DNA from: Labedella populi
GTDB taxonomy: Bacteria > Actinomycetota > Actinomycetes > Actinomycetales > Microbacteriaceae
Assembly: GCF_004078655.1 (NCBI RefSeq)
Contig: NZ_RZNC01000001.1
Span: 992,001-1,056,000 of the forward strand
Length of the DNA stretch: 64,000 nucleotides
Reading direction: 5' to 3'
Below, piece by piece: positions 53,882 to 63,823 of the stretch. Each line of letters begins with the position of its first letter. Position 1 is the stretch's first letter. A program made the position numbers and the translations under genes. The notes under the pieces were generated by a model. It was not told the DNA's origin. It saw only the letters and a list, made by a program, of their open reading frames with translations, and ran no database searches.

Positions 53882-54649
53882 TCAGCCGAGGAATCCCCGG
53901 AGGAGCGCCGCCGAGCCATCGAGATGCTCCGCCATGGCGCGGTCCGCCGCCTGGGCATCGCCGGTCAGGATCGCGATGACGATCGCCTCGTGCTGTTCGT
54001 CGGAGTGCCGGATGTTGCGGTCGAGCAGCGGGATGTCGTCGAGCAGCCGATTCACACGCATCCGGTTGTCCGCGAGCAGCGGGAGCAATGACGGCGAGCC
54101 GGTCAGCTCTCCGATGACGAGGTGCAAGCGGGAATCGAGCCGGCGATAGTCGTCGCCCGTGACCGACCGCGTCTCGGTGAGGCTCGTCCAGAGCAACTCC
54201 CGTTCGGCGGCCGTCAGCGGGCGCGAGGCGGCGGCGCGTGCTGCCCCCACTTCGAGGATCGACCGGAGGCCGAGCACGTCGTCGATCTCCGCCGGTGACG
54301 CGGCGACGGGTTGAGGCTCTCCCGCCGTGGCGGGCCCACGCCCACGTTCGGGAAGCGGATCCCGCACGAAGGTACCGCCGTACCGACCACGACGCGAGAG
54401 GAGGTAGCCGGCGGCCGTGAGTTCCTTGATGGCATCCCGCACGGTGTCGCGGCTCACTGCGAGACGGACGGCGAGGTCACGTTCCGGTGGCAGTGCGCCG
54501 CCGGGCGAGACAAGTCCCAGGCGGATCGTCTGGAGGAGTCTGTTGACGGTCTCCTCGAACGCGTTCTGTTCGTGGACCGGGCGAAGCACCGCGTCGCCCG
54601 CCGTCGTGCTGCGCGCCGACCCGCTGTCGTCGAGCGGCAGCTCGGTCAC
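53882..54649 (-). CDS. GntR-family regulator, FadR subfamily
   Basis: 255 residues, last gene of the gamma-glutamyl operon (4-base overlap). Winged helix at about 33-100: LVSPGGALPPERDLAVRLAVSRDTVRDAIKELTAAGYLLSRRG. FCD ligand domain at about 120-245 (IDDVLGLRSILEVGAARAAA, LDSRLHLVIGELTGSP, DEQHEAIVIAILTGD) with the Asp/His residues that bind a metal and carboxylate ligand. Likely represses its own operon and the divergent permease, responding to a carboxylated intermediate. Candidate operator at 59077-59103. Confidence 0.9.
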   Translation of the reverse strand: MTELPLDDSGSARSTTAGDAVLRPVHEQNAFEETVNRLLQTIRLGLVSPGGALPPERDLAVRLAVSRDTVRDAIKELTAAGYLLSRRGRYGGTFVRDPLPERGRGPATAGEPQPVAASPAEIDDVLGLRSILEVGAARAAASRPLTAAERELLWTSLTETRSVTGDDYRRLDSRLHLVIGELTGSPSLLPLLADNRMRVNRLLDDIPLLDRNIRHSDEQHEAIVIAILTGDAQAADRAMAEHLDGSAALLRGFLG

Positions 54650-55434
54650 AGGGGTGTCACGTAGGCCGACCCGATTCCGCCGTCGACCATGAAGCTCGAC
54701 GCCGTGATGAAGGAAGCGTCGTCACTCGCGAGGAATGCGACGGCCGCGGCGAGCTCCTCAGGCTCGGCGAAGCGGCCGACCGGGACGTGCACGAGGCGGC
54801 GGGCGGCGCGCTCGGGGTCGGAGGCGAAGAGCTCGGTGAGCAGCGGCGTGTTCACGGGGCCCGGGCAGAGCGCGTTGACGCGGATGCCCTGCCGCGCGAA
54901 CTGCACACCGAGTTCGCGCGTGAGCGCGAGCACGCCGCCCTTCGATGCGGTGTAGGAGATCTGCGACGTGGCCGACCCGAGCACGGCGACGAAGGACGCC
55001 GTGTTGATGATGGATCCGGACTGCTGGCGCACCATGTGGCGGAGGGCGGCGCGCGAGCACAGGTACACCGACGTGAGGTTGACGTCCTGGACGCGCTGCC
55101 ACGCGGGAAGCTCTGTCGTCTCGATGGAATCGTCGTCAGGAGGGGAGATGCCAGCGTTGTTGAAGGCGATGTCGAGCCGGCCGAACCGTGCGACGGTCGC
55201 GTCGAACAGATGGTCGACCGAGTCCTGATCGGCCACGTCGCAGCGGATGAAGACGCCGTCGACCTCATCGGCCGCCGCGGCGCCCGCGCGTTCGTCGAGG
55301 TCCGCGATGACGACGGTCGCCCCCTCTGCGGCGAAACGGCGGGCGGTCGCGAGCCCGATGCCACTCCCTCCCCCCGTGACGACGGCGATCCGCCCGCCGA
55401 GGCGGCGGGTGAGGTCGATGGGGGGCACGGTCAT
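54646..55434 (-). CDS. short-chain dehydrogenase/reductase
   Basis: 262 residues. Cofactor motif TGGGSGIG at 20-27, Asp45 after VVIAD pointing to NAD(H), NNAG at 92-95, catalytic Ser146 region, Y161-x3-K165 in YTASK. Classical SDR, complete. In this operon an alcohol-to-aldehyde oxidation would link a gamma-glutamylated amino alcohol to the aldehyde dehydrogenase. A 3-oxoacyl-ACP reductase name would be generic. Overlaps both neighbours by 4 bases. Confidence 0.9.
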   Translation of the reverse strand: MTVPPIDLTRRLGGRIAVVTGGGSGIGLATARRFAAEGATVVIADLDERAGAAAADEVDGVFIRCDVADQDSVDHLFDATVARFGRLDIAFNNAGISPPDDDSIETTELPAWQRVQDVNLTSVYLCSRAALRHMVRQQSGSIINTASFVAVLGSATSQISYTASKGGVLALTRELGVQFARQGIRVNALCPGPVNTPLLTELFASDPERAARRLVHVPVGRFAEPEELAAAVAFLASDDASFITASSFMVDGGIGSAYVTPL

Positions 55435-56825
55435 GGGGTCTCCTCCGGTGCATCGGTGATGGGTGCGTCATCGATGGCGAAGAACACGTTCTTCGTCTCC
55501 GTGAATGACAGCGGCGCGTCGGGGCCGAGCTCGCGGCCCAGGCCAGACTGCTTGAACCCTCCGAACGGTGTCGAGAACCGCACGGACGAGTGCGAGTTCA
55601 CCGACAAATTGCCGGACTCGACCGCGCGTGAGACCCGGACGGCGCGCGACAGGTCACGTGTCCAGATCGAGCCGGACAGGCCGTAGTCGGTCGCGTTGGC
55701 GAGGGCGATCGCGTCGGCCTCGTCGTCGAACGGCACGACCGAGACGACGGGACCGAAGATCTCCTCCCGGAAGGCGCGGTCGGTGCGCGCCGGCGTGAGG
55801 ACCGTCGGCGCGAACCAGAAGCCGTCCCCCGACGGTGCCGAGCCACGGAACGCCACGGCGCTGTCGTCGGGAACGTATCCGCTCACCTTCGCGAGGTGCT
55901 CACGGGAGACGAGCGGACCCATCTCGGTCGCGGGATCGAAGGGGTCGCCGACGATCACAGCCGTGACCGCCGGCTCGAGCAGCTCGAGAAAGCGATCGAA
56001 GACACGACGCTCGACGAGGATGCGGCTGCGCGCGCAGCAGTCCTGGCCGGCGTTCTCGAAGACCCCGGACGGAGCGGTGGCGGCGGCTCGCTCGAGGTCC
56101 GAGTCCGCGAAGATGATGTTCGCGCTCTTGCCTCCGAGTTCGAGGGTGACCCGTTTCAGCTGGTCGGCGGCGCGAGCCGCGATGAGCTTGCCCGTCGCCG
56201 TCGACCCGGTGAAGACGATCTTCCGCACATCCGGATGGGTCACGAGCCGGTCCCCGACCACCGATCCGAGCCCCGGCACCACTTGGAGGAGGTGCTCCGG
56301 CAGCCCGGCGGCCACGCCGATCTCGGCAAGCCGGAGCGACGTGAGCGGGGTCCACTCGGCGGGTTTCAGCACGACGGCGTTTCCGGCGGCGAGTGCCGGG
56401 GCGAATGCCCACGACGCGATCGTCATGGGGAAGTTCCACGGAGTGATCACTCCCACGACGCCGATCGGCTCGTGGAAGGTGATGTCGAGGCCCCCGGCCA
56501 CGGGGATCTGCGAACCGGCGAGACGCTCAGGAGCGGCGGCGTAGTAGTGGAGGACGTCACGGACGTGGCCCGCCTCCCATCGCGCTTGCGAGATCGGGTG
56601 CCCCGAGTTGCGCGCCTCGAGTTGCGCGAGCTCCTCGACGGCGCCGTCGACGGCGAGAGCGAACGACCGCAGCCCGGCGGCACGATCAGCGGGGGAGAGT
56701 CGGGCCCAGCCGCGCTGGGCCGTCACGGCCCGGGCGACGGCGGCGTCGGTGTCCTCGACGTCGGCGAAGTCCACCGCGGTGAACGGTGCGCCCGTCGAGG
56801 GGTCGATGAGGCTCGTCGCGGTCAT
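55431..56825 (-). CDS. aldehyde dehydrogenase (PuuC/gamma-glutamyl-aldehyde type)
   Basis: 464 residues from ATG 56825, which overlaps the amidotransferase stop. NAD site PWNFPMTIASWAFAPALAAGN and GSTATGKLIAA; general base in LELGGKSANIIF; nucleophile Cys in AGQDCCARSR near residue 262; EIFGPVVSVVPFDDEADAIALAN and the C-terminal FKQSGLGRELG. Full-length ALDH. Expected to oxidise a gamma-glutamyl-amino-aldehyde to the acid before hydrolysis by the next-upstream hydrolase. Confidence 0.93.
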   Translation of the reverse strand: MTATSLIDPSTGAPFTAVDFADVEDTDAAVARAVTAQRGWARLSPADRAAGLRSFALAVDGAVEELAQLEARNSGHPISQARWEAGHVRDVLHYYAAAPERLAGSQIPVAGGLDITFHEPIGVVGVITPWNFPMTIASWAFAPALAAGNAVVLKPAEWTPLTSLRLAEIGVAAGLPEHLLQVVPGLGSVVGDRLVTHPDVRKIVFTGSTATGKLIAARAADQLKRVTLELGGKSANIIFADSDLERAAATAPSGVFENAGQDCCARSRILVERRVFDRFLELLEPAVTAVIVGDPFDPATEMGPLVSREHLAKVSGYVPDDSAVAFRGSAPSGDGFWFAPTVLTPARTDRAFREEIFGPVVSVVPFDDEADAIALANATDYGLSGSIWTRDLSRAVRVSRAVESGNLSVNSHSSVRFSTPFGGFKQSGLGRELGPDAPLSFTETKNVFFAIDDAPITDAPEETP

Positions 56826-57619
56826 GCCGGTACTCCTTCTCTGCCTCGCGGCCCGTCCGCGTGCGGCTCCAACGATCGCCGCTGCGCGACGGTCCGCGCG
56901 GCGGTGACGGTGGCCTCGAAGAGGCGGAGGTCGTCGAGGTCCTCCTCCGGGTGCCACTGGACGGCGACGACGAACGTCGCTCCGGGGAGCTCGACGGCCT
57001 CGATGACACCGTCGGTCGTGTGAGCGCTTGCGACGAGCCCGTCGCCCAGCCCGTCGACGGCCTGATGGTGGTAGAGCTTCACGCCGACGCGGTGCCCGAC
57101 GATCCGCTCGAGCACGCTGTCCTGCCGCACTGACACCTGCGCCTCTGAGAAGACGCCGCCACCGAGCTGGTAGCGGTCGTCCCCGATGATGTCGGGGAGG
57201 TGCTGGTGCAGGGTCCCTCCCCGCAGCACGTTGAGGATCTGCGCTCCGCGGCAGATCCCGAGGACGGGGAGATCATGATCGAGGGCCGCCTCGAGGAGGT
57301 CGAACTCCCACGCGTCGCGGTCCGGCCGGGGGTCGTCGGTGTGGGAATGCGGCGCCTGACCGTAGCGGGCCGGCTCCACGTCCTTCCCGCCCGTGACGAC
57401 CAGTGCGTCGAGACCTGCGACGACGCGCCGCGCGATGCCCGGGCCTGTGGGTTGCGGAGGCAGCAGGACGACCGTTCCGCCCGCTCGCGTGATGGCCTCG
57501 ATGTACACCTTCGGCAGGAACGACGCCGGAACGTCCCAGACCCCGGTCCTCGACTGCTCGAGGTAGGTTGTCATTCCGATGATCGGTCGGTACGGTTCGG
57601 CCTCATCCGGACCGGCCAT
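56822..57619 (-). CDS. class I glutamine amidotransferase-type gamma-glutamyl hydrolase (PuuD-like)
   Basis: 265 residues from ATG 57619, 7 bases after the ligase gene. An alternative GTG at 57646 has GGAGAGGG upstream but lies inside the ligase gene, where that sequence encodes conserved residues, so it is less favoured. Nucleophile Cys in LGICRGAQILNV near residue 123; His-Glu in VAVQWHPEED near 220; RPIIGMTTYLE at the N-terminus; GGKDVEPARYG. Peptidase C26 family: cleaves gamma-glutamyl amides to release glutamate. Final step of a gamma-glutamylation pathway. Confidence 0.9.
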   Translation of the reverse strand: MAGPDEAEPYRPIIGMTTYLEQSRTGVWDVPASFLPKVYIEAITRAGGTVVLLPPQPTGPGIARRVVAGLDALVVTGGKDVEPARYGQAPHSHTDDPRPDRDAWEFDLLEAALDHDLPVLGICRGAQILNVLRGGTLHQHLPDIIGDDRYQLGGGVFSEAQVSVRQDSVLERIVGHRVGVKLYHHQAVDGLGDGLVASAHTTDGVIEAVELPGATFVVAVQWHPEEDLDDLRLFEATVTAARTVAQRRSLEPHADGPRGREGVPA

Positions 57620-57626
57620 CGTCGAA

Positions 57627-58991
57627 TCAGAGGCGCTCGAAACCACGGACCCTCTCCCAATCGGTCACGGCGGCGTCGAAGGCGCTCTGCTCGACCCGCG
57701 CGGCGTTCAGGTAGTGCTCGACGACGTCGTCGCCGAAGGCCTCACGAGCGACGGTCGACGCGCCGAAGAGCGTTGCGGCGTCACGCAGGGTCGACGGTAC
57801 GCGCTCGGCGTCGCTCTCGTACGCGTTGCCCGCGAGGGGCTCGCCGAGCTCGAGCTCCTGGTCGATCCCGTGCAGACCGCCCGCGATCAACGCCGCGACC
57901 GCGAGGTATTGGTTGACGTCGCCGCCGGGCACCCGGTTCTCCATCCGCATGGAGGGTCCGCGGCCGACGACGCGCACGGAACACGTCCGGTTGTCGAAGC
58001 CCCACGCGACGGCTGTCGGCGCGAAGCTCCCGTCGGCGAAGCGCTTGTACGAGTTGATGTTGGGGGCGAGGAAGAGGGTGAGTTCGCGCAGGGTCGCGAG
58101 CTGCCCGGCGATGAAGTGGCGGAACATCGGCGACATCCCGTCGGCCGCATTCGCGTCCGCGAAGACGAACGCGCCGTCCGATCCGCGGAGGGAGAGGTGG
58201 ATGTGGCAGCTGTTCCCCTCCCGCTCGTTGAACTTGGCCATGAACGTGATGCTCTTGCCGTGTGCGTCGGCGATCTCCTTCGCCCCGTTCTTGTAGACGG
58301 AGTGGTTGTCGCAGGTCGCGAGGGCGTCGGTGTACCGGAAGGCGATCTCCTGCTGGCCGAGGTTGCACTCGCCCTTGACGCCCTCGCAGTACATCCCGGC
58401 GCCGTCCATACTCACGCGGATGTCGCGGAGCAGCGGCTCCATCCGCGTCGAGGCGTGCAGGGCGTAGTCGACGTTGTAATCGCTCGCCGGCGTGAGGTCG
58501 CGGTAGCCGCGCTTCCAGGCGTCCCGGTACCCGTCGTCGAAGACGATGAACTCGAGCTCCGTGCCGACGTACGGCACGAGCCCCCGCTCGGCGAGCCGCT
58601 CGATCTGGCGCTCGAGGATCCGGCGGGGCGACTGCTCGACGGGGCGCTCGTCGAGCCAGTGCAGGTCGGCCGTCACGATCGCGGTGCCGGGGAGCCACGG
58701 CGCCAGTCGCAGCGTGTCGAGATCGGGGATCATCGCCATGTCGCCGTAGCCGGTCTCCCAGCTCGACATGCTGTAGCCACCCACCGTGTTCATCTCGACG
58801 TCGACGGCGAGCAAGTAGTTGCAGCACTCGGCTCCGTGTTCGGCGACCTCCTCGACGAAGAGGCGCGCCGACACGCGTTTACCGACGAGGCGGCCCTGCA
58901 TGTCCGTGAAGGCGACCACGACGGTGTCGATGTCTCCTGTCGCGCTCAACGCCGAGAGGCGCTCGAGGGTGAGGTTGCCTGTCGTCGTCAT
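57627..58991 (-). CDS. glutamine-synthetase-like gamma-glutamyl-amine ligase
   Basis: 454 residues from ATG 58991 (GGGAGCAG upstream). Beta-grasp N-terminus with DIDTVVVAFTDMQGRLVGKR; catalytic domain with GTELEFIVFDD (metal Glu), EGVKGECNLGQQEIAFRYTDAL, NEREGNSCHIHLSLR (metal/His loop), NINSYKRFADGSFAPTAVAWGFDNRT and RMENRVPGGDVNQYLAVA (Glu that closes the active site). It resembles GlnA3/GlnA4/PuuA ligases rather than housekeeping GlnA; no adenylylation Tyr motif was noticed. First gene of the operon. ATP-dependent coupling of glutamate to a primary amine is expected; ethanolamine is favoured by context. Confidence 0.92.
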   Translation of the reverse strand: MTTTGNLTLERLSALSATGDIDTVVVAFTDMQGRLVGKRVSARLFVEEVAEHGAECCNYLLAVDVEMNTVGGYSMSSWETGYGDMAMIPDLDTLRLAPWLPGTAIVTADLHWLDERPVEQSPRRILERQIERLAERGLVPYVGTELEFIVFDDGYRDAWKRGYRDLTPASDYNVDYALHASTRMEPLLRDIRVSMDGAGMYCEGVKGECNLGQQEIAFRYTDALATCDNHSVYKNGAKEIADAHGKSITFMAKFNEREGNSCHIHLSLRGSDGAFVFADANAADGMSPMFRHFIAGQLATLRELTLFLAPNINSYKRFADGSFAPTAVAWGFDNRTCSVRVVGRGPSMRMENRVPGGDVNQYLAVAALIAGGLHGIDQELELGEPLAGNAYESDAERVPSTLRDAATLFGASTVAREAFGDDVVEHYLNAARVEQSAFDAAVTDWERVRGFERL

Positions 58992-59076
58992 GGCTGCTCC
59001 CGCGGTTAAGGTCGGTTCGCGCTCATTCAAGCACACGGAGACAGCCGCCGGAGCCGCTTCTGTTACACGATGTTTA

Positions 59077-59103
59077 CAACCAAAGGTTGGTCAGGGGTAC
59101 CAA
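59077..59103. promoter_or_regulatory. overlapping inverted repeats, candidate GntR operator
   Basis: CAACC-AAA-GGTTG (59077-59089) overlaps TTGGT-N7-ACCAA (59087-59103). The second contains TGGT...ACCA, similar in symmetry to FadR-subfamily operators (TNGTNNNACNA) but with a longer spacer. It lies in the divergent gap between the ligase operon and the permease, in locally AT-richer DNA. Confidence 0.5.
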
Positions 59104-59149
59104 TCCAGGAATAGTCTCTCGCTCAATCGCTCCGCCTCAACTCGATCCC

Positions 59150-59193
59150 AGTTCTCCGCTCCACCGCAGTTCTCCGCTCCACCGCAGTTCTCC
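59150..59193 (+). repeat. 18-base tandem repeat, 2.4 copies, in the permease leader
   Basis: AGTTCTCCGCTCCACCGC occurs at 59150-59167 and 59168-59185, followed by AGTTCTCC at 59186-59193. The copies are identical. They end 26 bases before the permease ATG. Confidence 0.85.
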
Positions 59194-59219
59194 CCGACCA
59201 CGCAGAGAAAGAGGACCAG

Positions 59220-60749
59220 ATGGCCGCAGCAGACAAAGTGAGCGTCTCGGGAGTGAGCTACAGCCGCGCAGAGGCCGGCTACTTCGAGAAGCGCAGCCTC
59301 AAGCGAACCGCCGGCTTCTGGGGGATCTGGGGCATCGGCATCGCTGCCGTCATCTCGGGCGACTTCTCGGGCTGGAACGGCGGCCTCGCCGTCGCGGGCT
59401 GGGGCGGTCTCGTCATCGCCTTCGGCCTCGTCATCGTCATGTTCCTGCTGATGATCAACAGCATCGCGGAGATGGCCGCGGCGATGCCGCACACCGGTGG
59501 GGCCTACTCGTTCGCGCGCGCCGCGATGGGGCCATGGGGCGGATTCGTCACGGGCTTCGCCGAGACGATCGAGTACGTCATGACGACGGCCGTCGTCACG
59601 TACTTCTCCGCGCAGTACGCCGACCAGATCCTCGACACCCTCGTGGGCGTCAGTCTTCAGGATCAGTCGATGATGTGGGTCTGGTGGGTCGTGTTGTACG
59701 GGATCTTCGTCGGTCTCAACTCCATCGGAGCGAACACGTCGTTCCGTTTCGCCGTCATCGTCGCGATCATCTCGCTCGGCATCCTCCTCGTCTTCGCGGT
59801 CCTCTCGGTCACTTCCGGAGCCTTCGACGTCGCGAAGCTCTTCGACCAGCCGGTGCAGGAGGGTGGCTCGGTTTTCCTCCCGTTCGGTTTCTGGGCCGTG
59901 ATCGCGGCGATGCCGTTCGCGATGTGGTTCTTCCTCGGCATCGAGGAGCTCCCGCTCGTGGCCGAGGAGGCGCACGACCCGGAGAAGGACATCCCGCGCG
60001 CGAGCATCTGGGGGTTCGTCACCCTCATCGTCACGGGCGCAACGGTCCTCCTCCTCAACCCCGGCGTGCTCGGCGCCGAGGCGACGGCCGGCTCGCTCGA
60101 ACCGCTCCTCGAAGGATTCCGCTCCGTCATCCCGGCAGAACTCGCGGCCGTGCTCTCTGCCTTCGCGCTCATCGGTCTGCTCGCGTCGCTGCAGGGCATC
60201 ATGTTCGCCTACGGCCGCAACGTGTACTCGCTGTCCCGTGCCGGCTACTACCCGAAGTTCCTCTCGCTCACCGGTGCCCGGCAGACGCCCTACGTCGCGC
60301 TCATCGCGGGAGCGCTCGTCGGCTTCCTGTCACTCTTCCTCGCGGAGTACGGCGGCGCGACAGCCGGTGGCATCGTGCTCAACATCGCGGTGTGGGGAGC
60401 GGTCATCGCCTACATGCTGCAGATGGTGTCCTACGTCATCCTTCGGCGCCGGTTCCCGAACGCCCGGCGACCGTTCCGCAGCGTGTTCGGGGTGCCGGGC
60501 GCGATCATCGCGGGCGTGCTCGCGTTCGTCATCTGGATGGGGGAGAACCTCAACCCCGCCTACACGCCGGCCATCGTCGCCGCGATCGTCGTCTACGTCG
60601 TCGCCCTCGTCCTGTTCGCCCTCTTCAGCCGCCGCAACCTCGTGCTGTCGCCGGAGGAGGAGTACGCGATGTCGGGGGGTCTTCACGGCGACCCGGCCGC
60701 GGAGGGGTACGGGGGAGCCGTCGAGGACGAGATCCTCGGCCGGCGCTGA
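59220..60749 (+). CDS. APC-family permease, ethanolamine-permease type
   Basis: 509 residues, about 12 membrane helices. GFWGIWGIGIAAVISGDFSG and GWNGGLAVAGWGG near 40-65 contain the APC unwound helix 1; AAAMPHTGGAYSFARAAMG and GFVTGFAETIEYVMTTAV are characteristic of the ethanolamine permease group (TIGR00908-like); WFFLGIEELPLVAEEAHDPEKD is the conserved cytoplasmic loop. The C-terminal 40 residues are soluble. Shine-Dalgarno AGAAAGAGG precedes the ATG. Divergent from the ligase operon, so it probably imports that pathway's substrate. Confidence 0.88.
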   Translation: MAAADKVSVSGVSYSRAEAGYFEKRSLKRTAGFWGIWGIGIAAVISGDFSGWNGGLAVAGWGGLVIAFGLVIVMFLLMINSIAEMAAAMPHTGGAYSFARAAMGPWGGFVTGFAETIEYVMTTAVVTYFSAQYADQILDTLVGVSLQDQSMMWVWWVVLYGIFVGLNSIGANTSFRFAVIVAIISLGILLVFAVLSVTSGAFDVAKLFDQPVQEGGSVFLPFGFWAVIAAMPFAMWFFLGIEELPLVAEEAHDPEKDIPRASIWGFVTLIVTGATVLLLNPGVLGAEATAGSLEPLLEGFRSVIPAELAAVLSAFALIGLLASLQGIMFAYGRNVYSLSRAGYYPKFLSLTGARQTPYVALIAGALVGFLSLFLAEYGGATAGGIVLNIAVWGAVIAYMLQMVSYVILRRRFPNARRPFRSVFGVPGAIIAGVLAFVIWMGENLNPAYTPAIVAAIVVYVVALVLFALFSRRNLVLSPEEEYAMSGGLHGDPAAEGYGGAVEDEILGRR

Positions 60750-60819: not shown

Positions 60820-60950
60820 CGTCACAGGCGATCCGCCCGTTTTCAGCGTGTGGTGAGCCGCCCGGACTAGCATGGGACGGTGCGGGGTGACGCCCTGCCC
60901 GAGAACATGCACCGGCCGACGATAGAGGTCGATGTCGACGACGCACGAGT

Positions 60951-60954
60951 GGAG
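60951..60954 (+). promoter_or_regulatory. Shine-Dalgarno that sets the secA start
   Basis: GGAG is 7 bases before GTG 60962 but only 1 base before the in-frame ATG 60956. The GTG also gives the standard [10 protein letters not shown]-terminus, so it is taken as the start. Confidence 0.6.
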
Positions 60955-60961
60955 TATGTCC

Positions 60962-63823
<2,862 letters not shown>

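Follow-up and report, generated by a model that had tools for sequence, protein, structure and literature searches.

A GlnA4-type gene cluster in Labedella populi that very likely serves ethanolamine catabolism

The locus and its genes

We examined a 64,000-nucleotide stretch of the Labedella populi genome (assembly GCF_004078655.1, contig NZ_RZNC01000001.1, positions 992,001 to 1,056,000), referred to here as the window, in which an operon-like set of five genes on the minus strand (53882-58991) and a divergent permease gene on the plus strand (59220-60749) very likely form a system for ethanolamine catabolism built around a GlnA4-type ligase. From 58991 downwards the five genes encode a glutamine synthetase (GS)-like ligase, a peptidase C26 hydrolase, an aldehyde dehydrogenase (ALDH), a short-chain dehydrogenase (SDR) and a GntR/FCD regulator. 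They are read as one operon because there is a 4-base overlap at each of three junctions (C26/ALDH, ALDH/SDR and SDR/GntR) and the ligase and C26 genes overlap or nearly touch. This arrangement, including the open reading frames (ORFs) and their families, is as the first-pass annotation had described it. The extent that it gave, 57627-60749, holds the ligase and permease genes, but the whole system begins at 53882.

The ligase (57627-58991, minus strand), a predicted gamma-glutamylethanolamide synthetase, matches PF00120 at 332 bits and is read from the ATG at 58991, with the GTG at 59036 also possible. The C26 or glutamine amidotransferase-type protein (56822-57646, minus strand) matches PF07722 at 211 bits, has GICRG and WHPE motifs and is a predicted gamma-glutamylglycine hydrolase; it starts either at the GTG at 57646, which gives a 20-base overlap with the ligase gene, or at the ATG at 57619. 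The ALDH (55431-56825, minus strand; PF00171, 509 bits; ELGGK and GQDC motifs) is predicted to convert the gamma-glutamyl aldehyde to gamma-glutamylglycine, and the SDR (54646-55434, minus strand; TGGGSGIG and YTASK motifs), which matches NF004713 at 485.5 bits (cut-off 404), is a predicted gamma-glutamylethanolamide dehydrogenase. The regulator (53882-54649, minus strand) matches PF00392 and PF07729 and is assigned to the EpuRI type. The APC-family permease is a predicted ethanolamine importer that matches TIGR00908 ("ethanolamine permease") at 340.9 bits, below the curated cut-off of 381.75, so that "ethanolamine-type", as it had been called, is a fair label and not a formal assignment. The next ORF on the plus strand beyond the permease gene (60932-63823) is presumably SecA, as recognised by eye from the sequence without a family search.

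Orthology of the ligase to GlnA4

Krysenko (2019, PMC6529630) described a Streptomyces ethanolamine cluster encoding a membrane protein (orf1, SCO1610), a short-chain dehydrogenase, an aldehyde dehydrogenase, GlnA4, a regulator, a putative ethanolamine transporter and a glutamine amidotransferase. In S. coelicolor, GlnA4 was shown to form gamma-glutamylethanolamide and was called specific for ethanolamine among the amines tried, the glnA4 mutant failed to grow in liquid culture on ethanolamine, and glnA4 was repressed by EpuRI (PMC6529630). It was proposed that the product of GlnA4 is oxidized by the dehydrogenase SCO1611 and the ALDH SCO1612 and then hydrolyzed by the amidohydrolase SCO1615 (PMC6529630). 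A 2022 review repeats this route, with the later steps resting on bioinformatical and transcriptional analysis (PMC9397018). Only the first step of the pathway is demonstrated, in S. coelicolor, and the later steps are inferred.

The comparison with S. coelicolor was anchored through the oligonucleotides in Table 2 of PMC6529630, which were searched against genomes. One primer was searched in 392 sampled genomes of a single genus (that of genome G018, presumably Streptomyces) and matched 12 of them, including the genome used here as the anchor, G624. Nine stretches of the Table 2 primers for this cluster, labelled glnA4, SCO1612 or SCO1614, were checked (SCO1614_r was left out) and match G624 at 0 mismatches. 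The SCO1612 primers sit in the ALDH homologue of G624 and the SCO1614 primers in its regulator homologue, with one primer labelled SCO1614_f falling in the ALDH region; from their position, the C26 protein and the SDR of G624 are taken to be SCO1615 and SCO1611. The window proteins are 47% (C26), 47% (GntR), 64% (ligase), 68% (ALDH) and 72% (SDR) identical to those of the anchor cluster. A 462-residue GS-like ORF of G624 has the published GlnA4 residues at their published numbers at 15 of the 17 positions checked (E156, E158, D186, V189, E219, E226, E269, G270, H274, H276, R325, F331, R348, E359 and R361).

The phylogeny of the ligase against GlnA3, GlnA4 and PuuA that the first-pass annotation had proposed was run on 58 rows (56 different) with IQ-TREE under LG+C20. 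The window ligase falls within a 44-row clade that holds the GlnA4 of G624 (support 99/93). This clade excludes PuuA, the other three GS-family proteins of G624 in the tree (the GlnA3-like one among them) and the remaining two of the L. populi genome. PuuA and the GlnA3-like protein are on long branches and their exact position is unsure, yet neither is inside the GlnA4 clade. G624 has five PF00120 matches, four of which are in the tree (the fifth, L105, was left out), and its GlnA1-, GlnA2- and GlnA3-like proteins are so named from similarity and place only. The L. populi genome has three PF00120 matches: this ligase and two proteins that pair with the GlnA1-like and the GlnA2-like protein of G624.

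At the 15 positions where G624 matches the published residues, the window ligase is identical to it except for L in place of V189, and the metal, glutamate and ATP residues are kept. F331, which occupies the position of GS E327, is kept in the window ligase and is F in all 44 clade rows; PuuA has Y there, the GlnA3-like protein of G624 has W, and its GlnA1- and GlnA2-like proteins have E. Orthology to the tested GlnA4, at 64% identity, indicates that ethanolamine is very probably the substrate of the window ligase. The best solved-structure matches of the ligase are 11zs (437.6 bits) and 5dm3 (409 bits), both of which are named just glutamine synthetase.

Conservation of the gene neighborhood

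In a class-wide sample of 394 genomes, 209 had a ligase match at E <= 1e-60, of which the weakest may represent different ligases, and these matches suggest that the GlnA4 ethanolamine cluster is widespread among actinobacteria. Forty regions were fetched, 28 of them picked from the class-wide list and 12 from the primer matches, with G018 and G112 on both lists. Two primer-matched regions (L062 and L065) had no match to any window protein and were dropped, leaving 38 loci that are not a random sample. The ligase is accompanied by the SDR and ALDH in 37 of these loci, by C26 in 37, by GntR in 35 and by the permease in 17, and the grouping of the SDR, ALDH, C26 and GntR genes with the ligase is therefore taken to be more than chance. 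The lone locus without the SDR and ALDH stops at a contig edge, and an SDR orthologue is found on another contig of that genome.

The cluster was also examined at four plasmid loci (Nonomuraea, Embleya and two from Arthrobacter), taken from 309 matching plasmid records. GS, C26, ALDH and SDR genes are present in all four, GntR in three and the permease in two. Outside this set, a 51% ligase is paired in Thermomicrobium with an SDR and with a gene that bears the annotation eat. On the plasmid of Arthrobacter sp. U41 (L012), which is typed as conjugative, the GS-C26-ALDH-SDR genes lie downstream of an amidase gene and an inositol monophosphatase-type gene; a choline kinase-type gene is nearby, and a homologue of the window permease was not found in the stretch.

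An SDR family that tracks the ligase

Co-occurrence of the SDR with the ligase was determined in 35 genomes: 20 that were listed as ligase-free (of 185 without a match) and 15 that carry the ligase, the latter being all the ligase-bearing genomes of the window's family and order except its own. An SDR orthologue was found in all 15 ligase-bearing genomes and in none of the 20 ligase-free genomes. The best SDR match scored at least 379 bits (71-83%) in each ligase-bearing genome, whereas the top match in the ligase-free genomes scored 168 bits (41%).

The NCBIfam model for this SDR, NF004713, carries the name 3-oxoacyl-ACP reductase (ACP, acyl carrier protein). The closest solved structure is PDB 4wec (437.5 bits), which we take to be from Mycobacterium smegmatis. 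The NF004713 family, which is close to 4wec, is probably a gamma-glutamylethanolamide dehydrogenase, and its current name looks wrong. The acidic residues DLD follow the second strand of the SDR, and under the rules for SDR proteins the enzyme is probably NAD-dependent. A search of the literature, within the text available, found no assay of a gamma-glutamylethanolamide dehydrogenase, and a search on 4wec or 5dm3 returned only papers unrelated by title. The second step of the pathway is given a specific enzyme candidate by this cluster, and 4wec may gain an assignable function.

The permease and the intergenic region

Homologues of the window permease at 60-65% are encoded divergently from the ligase in 16 of the 38 loci, and one 39% homologue is encoded on the ligase strand. 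The window permease is 40% identical to the Embleya permease, whose gene sits between those of the regulator and C26. The ethanolamine transporter gene is reported in several Streptomyces and is reported as lacking in S. coelicolor (PMC6529630).

The region between the ligase and permease genes (58992-59219) is a putative divergent promoter/operator. It contains an AAAGGT-n11-ACCA block that is also found in four relatives, in an alignment of 5 of 18 extracted intergenic regions, and a role for this block as the operator is only a lead. A perfect 18-bp tandem repeat of 2.5 copies (59149-59193) lies just 5' of the permease gene and is largely gapped in the four aligned relatives. Exact dyads were searched 5' of the ligase in 43 sequences and no motif common to most of them was found (the best was in 9, against a maximum of 3 in 20 mononucleotide shuffles). 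Within groups, the best dyads occurred in 8 of 12 sequences of the Streptomyces type and in 5 of 18 of the permease-divergent type, where shuffles reached no more than 3 and 2, respectively; nothing is drawn from these since the stretches contain coding sequence and share descent.

Proposed pathway and alternatives

In the proposed pathway, the permease would import ethanolamine and the ligase would use ATP to join it to the gamma-carboxyl group of glutamate, as was shown for GlnA4 of S. coelicolor and is expected here from orthology. The SDR would then oxidize the alcohol group of gamma-glutamylethanolamide, the ALDH would convert the resulting aldehyde to gamma-glutamylglycine, and the C26 hydrolase would release glycine and recycle glutamate, all three steps being those proposed in print. 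The GntR/FCD protein would act as an EpuRI-like repressor, a role demonstrated for EpuRI in S. coelicolor. The chemistry of this route would require no ammonia-lyase, cobalamin or microcompartment. It is very likely that the cluster is a GlnA4-type ethanolamine catabolic operon. The same route through ligase, SDR, ALDH and hydrolase had been suggested from the sequence of the window at the outset; it is supported and very probably right, and the 2019 study had already described this gene set and route in Streptomyces (PMC6529630).

Several observations weigh against assigning the cluster to ethanolamine. The permease falls under the curated cut-off of its family model, and a permease homologue was found near the ligase in 0 of 11 Streptomyces-type loci, 10 of which were chosen by an S. 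coelicolor primer (S. coelicolor itself being reported without the permease, PMC6529630). The anchor genome is linked to S. coelicolor through primers and residue numbers only, and the published D69 and D81 are N69 and V81 in G624. On the Paenarthrobacter plasmid pYJN5-2 (L013), a 51% ligase stands beside an aminotransferase and lacks an SDR partner, from which it follows that ligases this far diverged can be accompanied by different genes; among GS-like ligases the partners vary, and probably the substrates too. The L. populi genome also has flavin-dependent oxidases of the same superfamily as PuuB (28 PF01266 matches); two of these are 32% like PuuB and, together with a short third match, are encoded elsewhere in it.

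The L013 plasmid carries its ligase, ALDH, class III aminotransferase and PxpA genes in two inverted copies with identical ligases, an arrangement that may serve to glutamylate a different amine. A Rhodococcus pyridinivorans plasmid (L017) has a pair of neighboring GS-like ligases, at 41% and 31% to that of the window, along with several SDRs and an acetate-CoA ligase.

The same chemistry could act on another small amino alcohol (alaninol, serinol or 1-amino-2-propanol) with ethanolamine as a secondary substrate, which we consider improbable. The substitution of an SDR for an amine oxidase requires no more than an amino alcohol, the window permease is only 40% identical to that of Embleya, and GS-like relatives at 41-51% occur with other partner genes. 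The ligase, however, shares a clade with the assayed GlnA4 and retains the residues examined, GlnA4 was ethanolamine-specific among the amines tried (PMC6529630), and 1-amino-2-propanol fits poorly since the ALDH step needs a primary alcohol. There is likewise only a slim chance that the system, in the branch formed by the family of the window and related lineages, whose divergent permease is only about 40% like that of Embleya, has shifted its specificity to a different primary amino alcohol such as serinol or alaninol. If so, the pathway would be related but distinct, and the SDR would represent a new family of gamma-glutamyl amino-alcohol dehydrogenases.

A polyamine route of the Puu or GlnA3-like type, with its oxidase encoded at another locus of the genome, is highly improbable. 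The C26 and ALDH proteins do match the PuuD and PuuC models, below cut-off, and the two long PuuB-like genes (C9:156819-161540) lie beside Pot-type transport and aminotransferase genes. This route nevertheless has no place for an SDR that tracks the ligase, and the L. populi genome has a GlnA2-like protein, GlnA2 being a polyamine ligase in S. coelicolor (PMC8998196). The first-pass annotation had noted the lack of PuuB in the operon, and no PuuB-like sequence (E <= 1e-5) was found in the 42 cluster loci (38 plus 4 plasmid), a test that does detect puuB of E. coli and one of the PuuB-like genes in the L. populi genome; the PuuB-like genes of this genome lie elsewhere. The same annotation had allowed for a ligase of the PuuA/GlnA3 clade with a co-regulated PuuB gene elsewhere, the first part of which is contradicted by the placement of the ligase with GlnA4. 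The Puu pathway was rejected on the clade of the ligase and the lack of PuuB-like sequence at the cluster loci, and the eut ammonia-lyase route was rejected as EutB had no match in the L. populi genome (the control was positive in E. coli, 1 of 14 control genomes).

The two long PuuB-like genes belong to a locus (C9:149000-168500) that also contains Pot-type ABC transporter genes and genes for an amidohydrolase, an APC permease and a class III aminotransferase (NF005102, above cut-off). A PF00120 search found no GS-family gene on contig C9, and the locus probably serves polyamine use without a GS-like ligase.

Comparison with known systems

The E. coli Puu pathway shares with the window the logic of glutamylation, ALDH and C26 hydrolase. 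It differs in that the PuuB oxidase acts on a diamine and in that PuuA, with Y at position 331, is outside the GlnA4 clade. The eut route has in common the substrate ethanolamine and an ethanolamine-type permease and differs in EutB, which was not found in the L. populi genome.

A further related system is the Phaeobacter MED193 cluster, whose proteins rise on phosphorylethanolamine and for which gamma-glutamylation of ethanolamine is described (PMC10132767). It has a GS-like ligase, an ALDH and equal intermediates. Ruegeria has the gene order of this cluster, with a 45% ligase and TRAP, ALDH and iron-containing alcohol dehydrogenase genes. Ruegeria and Aminobacter plasmids have a 45-50% ligase and an ALDH, with an iron-containing alcohol dehydrogenase in place of the SDR, an N-formylglutamate amidohydrolase in place of C26 and an RpiR regulator. 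The replacement of the alcohol dehydrogenase and the hydrolase by other families in this lineage supports the chemistry. In Aminobacter aminovorans pAA03 (L015), the ligase, ALDH and iron-containing alcohol dehydrogenase genes lie immediately 5' of bhcRABCD, the genes of the beta-hydroxyaspartate cycle; this cycle could carry ethanolamine carbon further by way of glycine and glyoxylate.

The closest known system is the Streptomyces GlnA4 cluster (SCO1611-SCO1615). A literature search joining ethanolamine, GlnA4 and Microbacteri- found no paper. In the window, the GS-C26-ALDH-SDR-GntR genes run in one direction with a divergent permease gene, whereas in the Streptomyces cluster the regulator and C26 genes diverge from GS-ALDH-SDR. 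The SDR, ALDH, ligase, regulator, permease and amidotransferase of the Streptomyces-type cluster are all six present in the window, in a different order. The SDR, ALDH, GlnA4, GntR/FCD and C26-type proteins are homologous at 47-72% and the proposed pathway is equal; the permease is reported in several Streptomyces (PMC6529630) and is seen in Embleya. The cluster is not a new system and is a further example of the published Streptomyces ethanolamine system.

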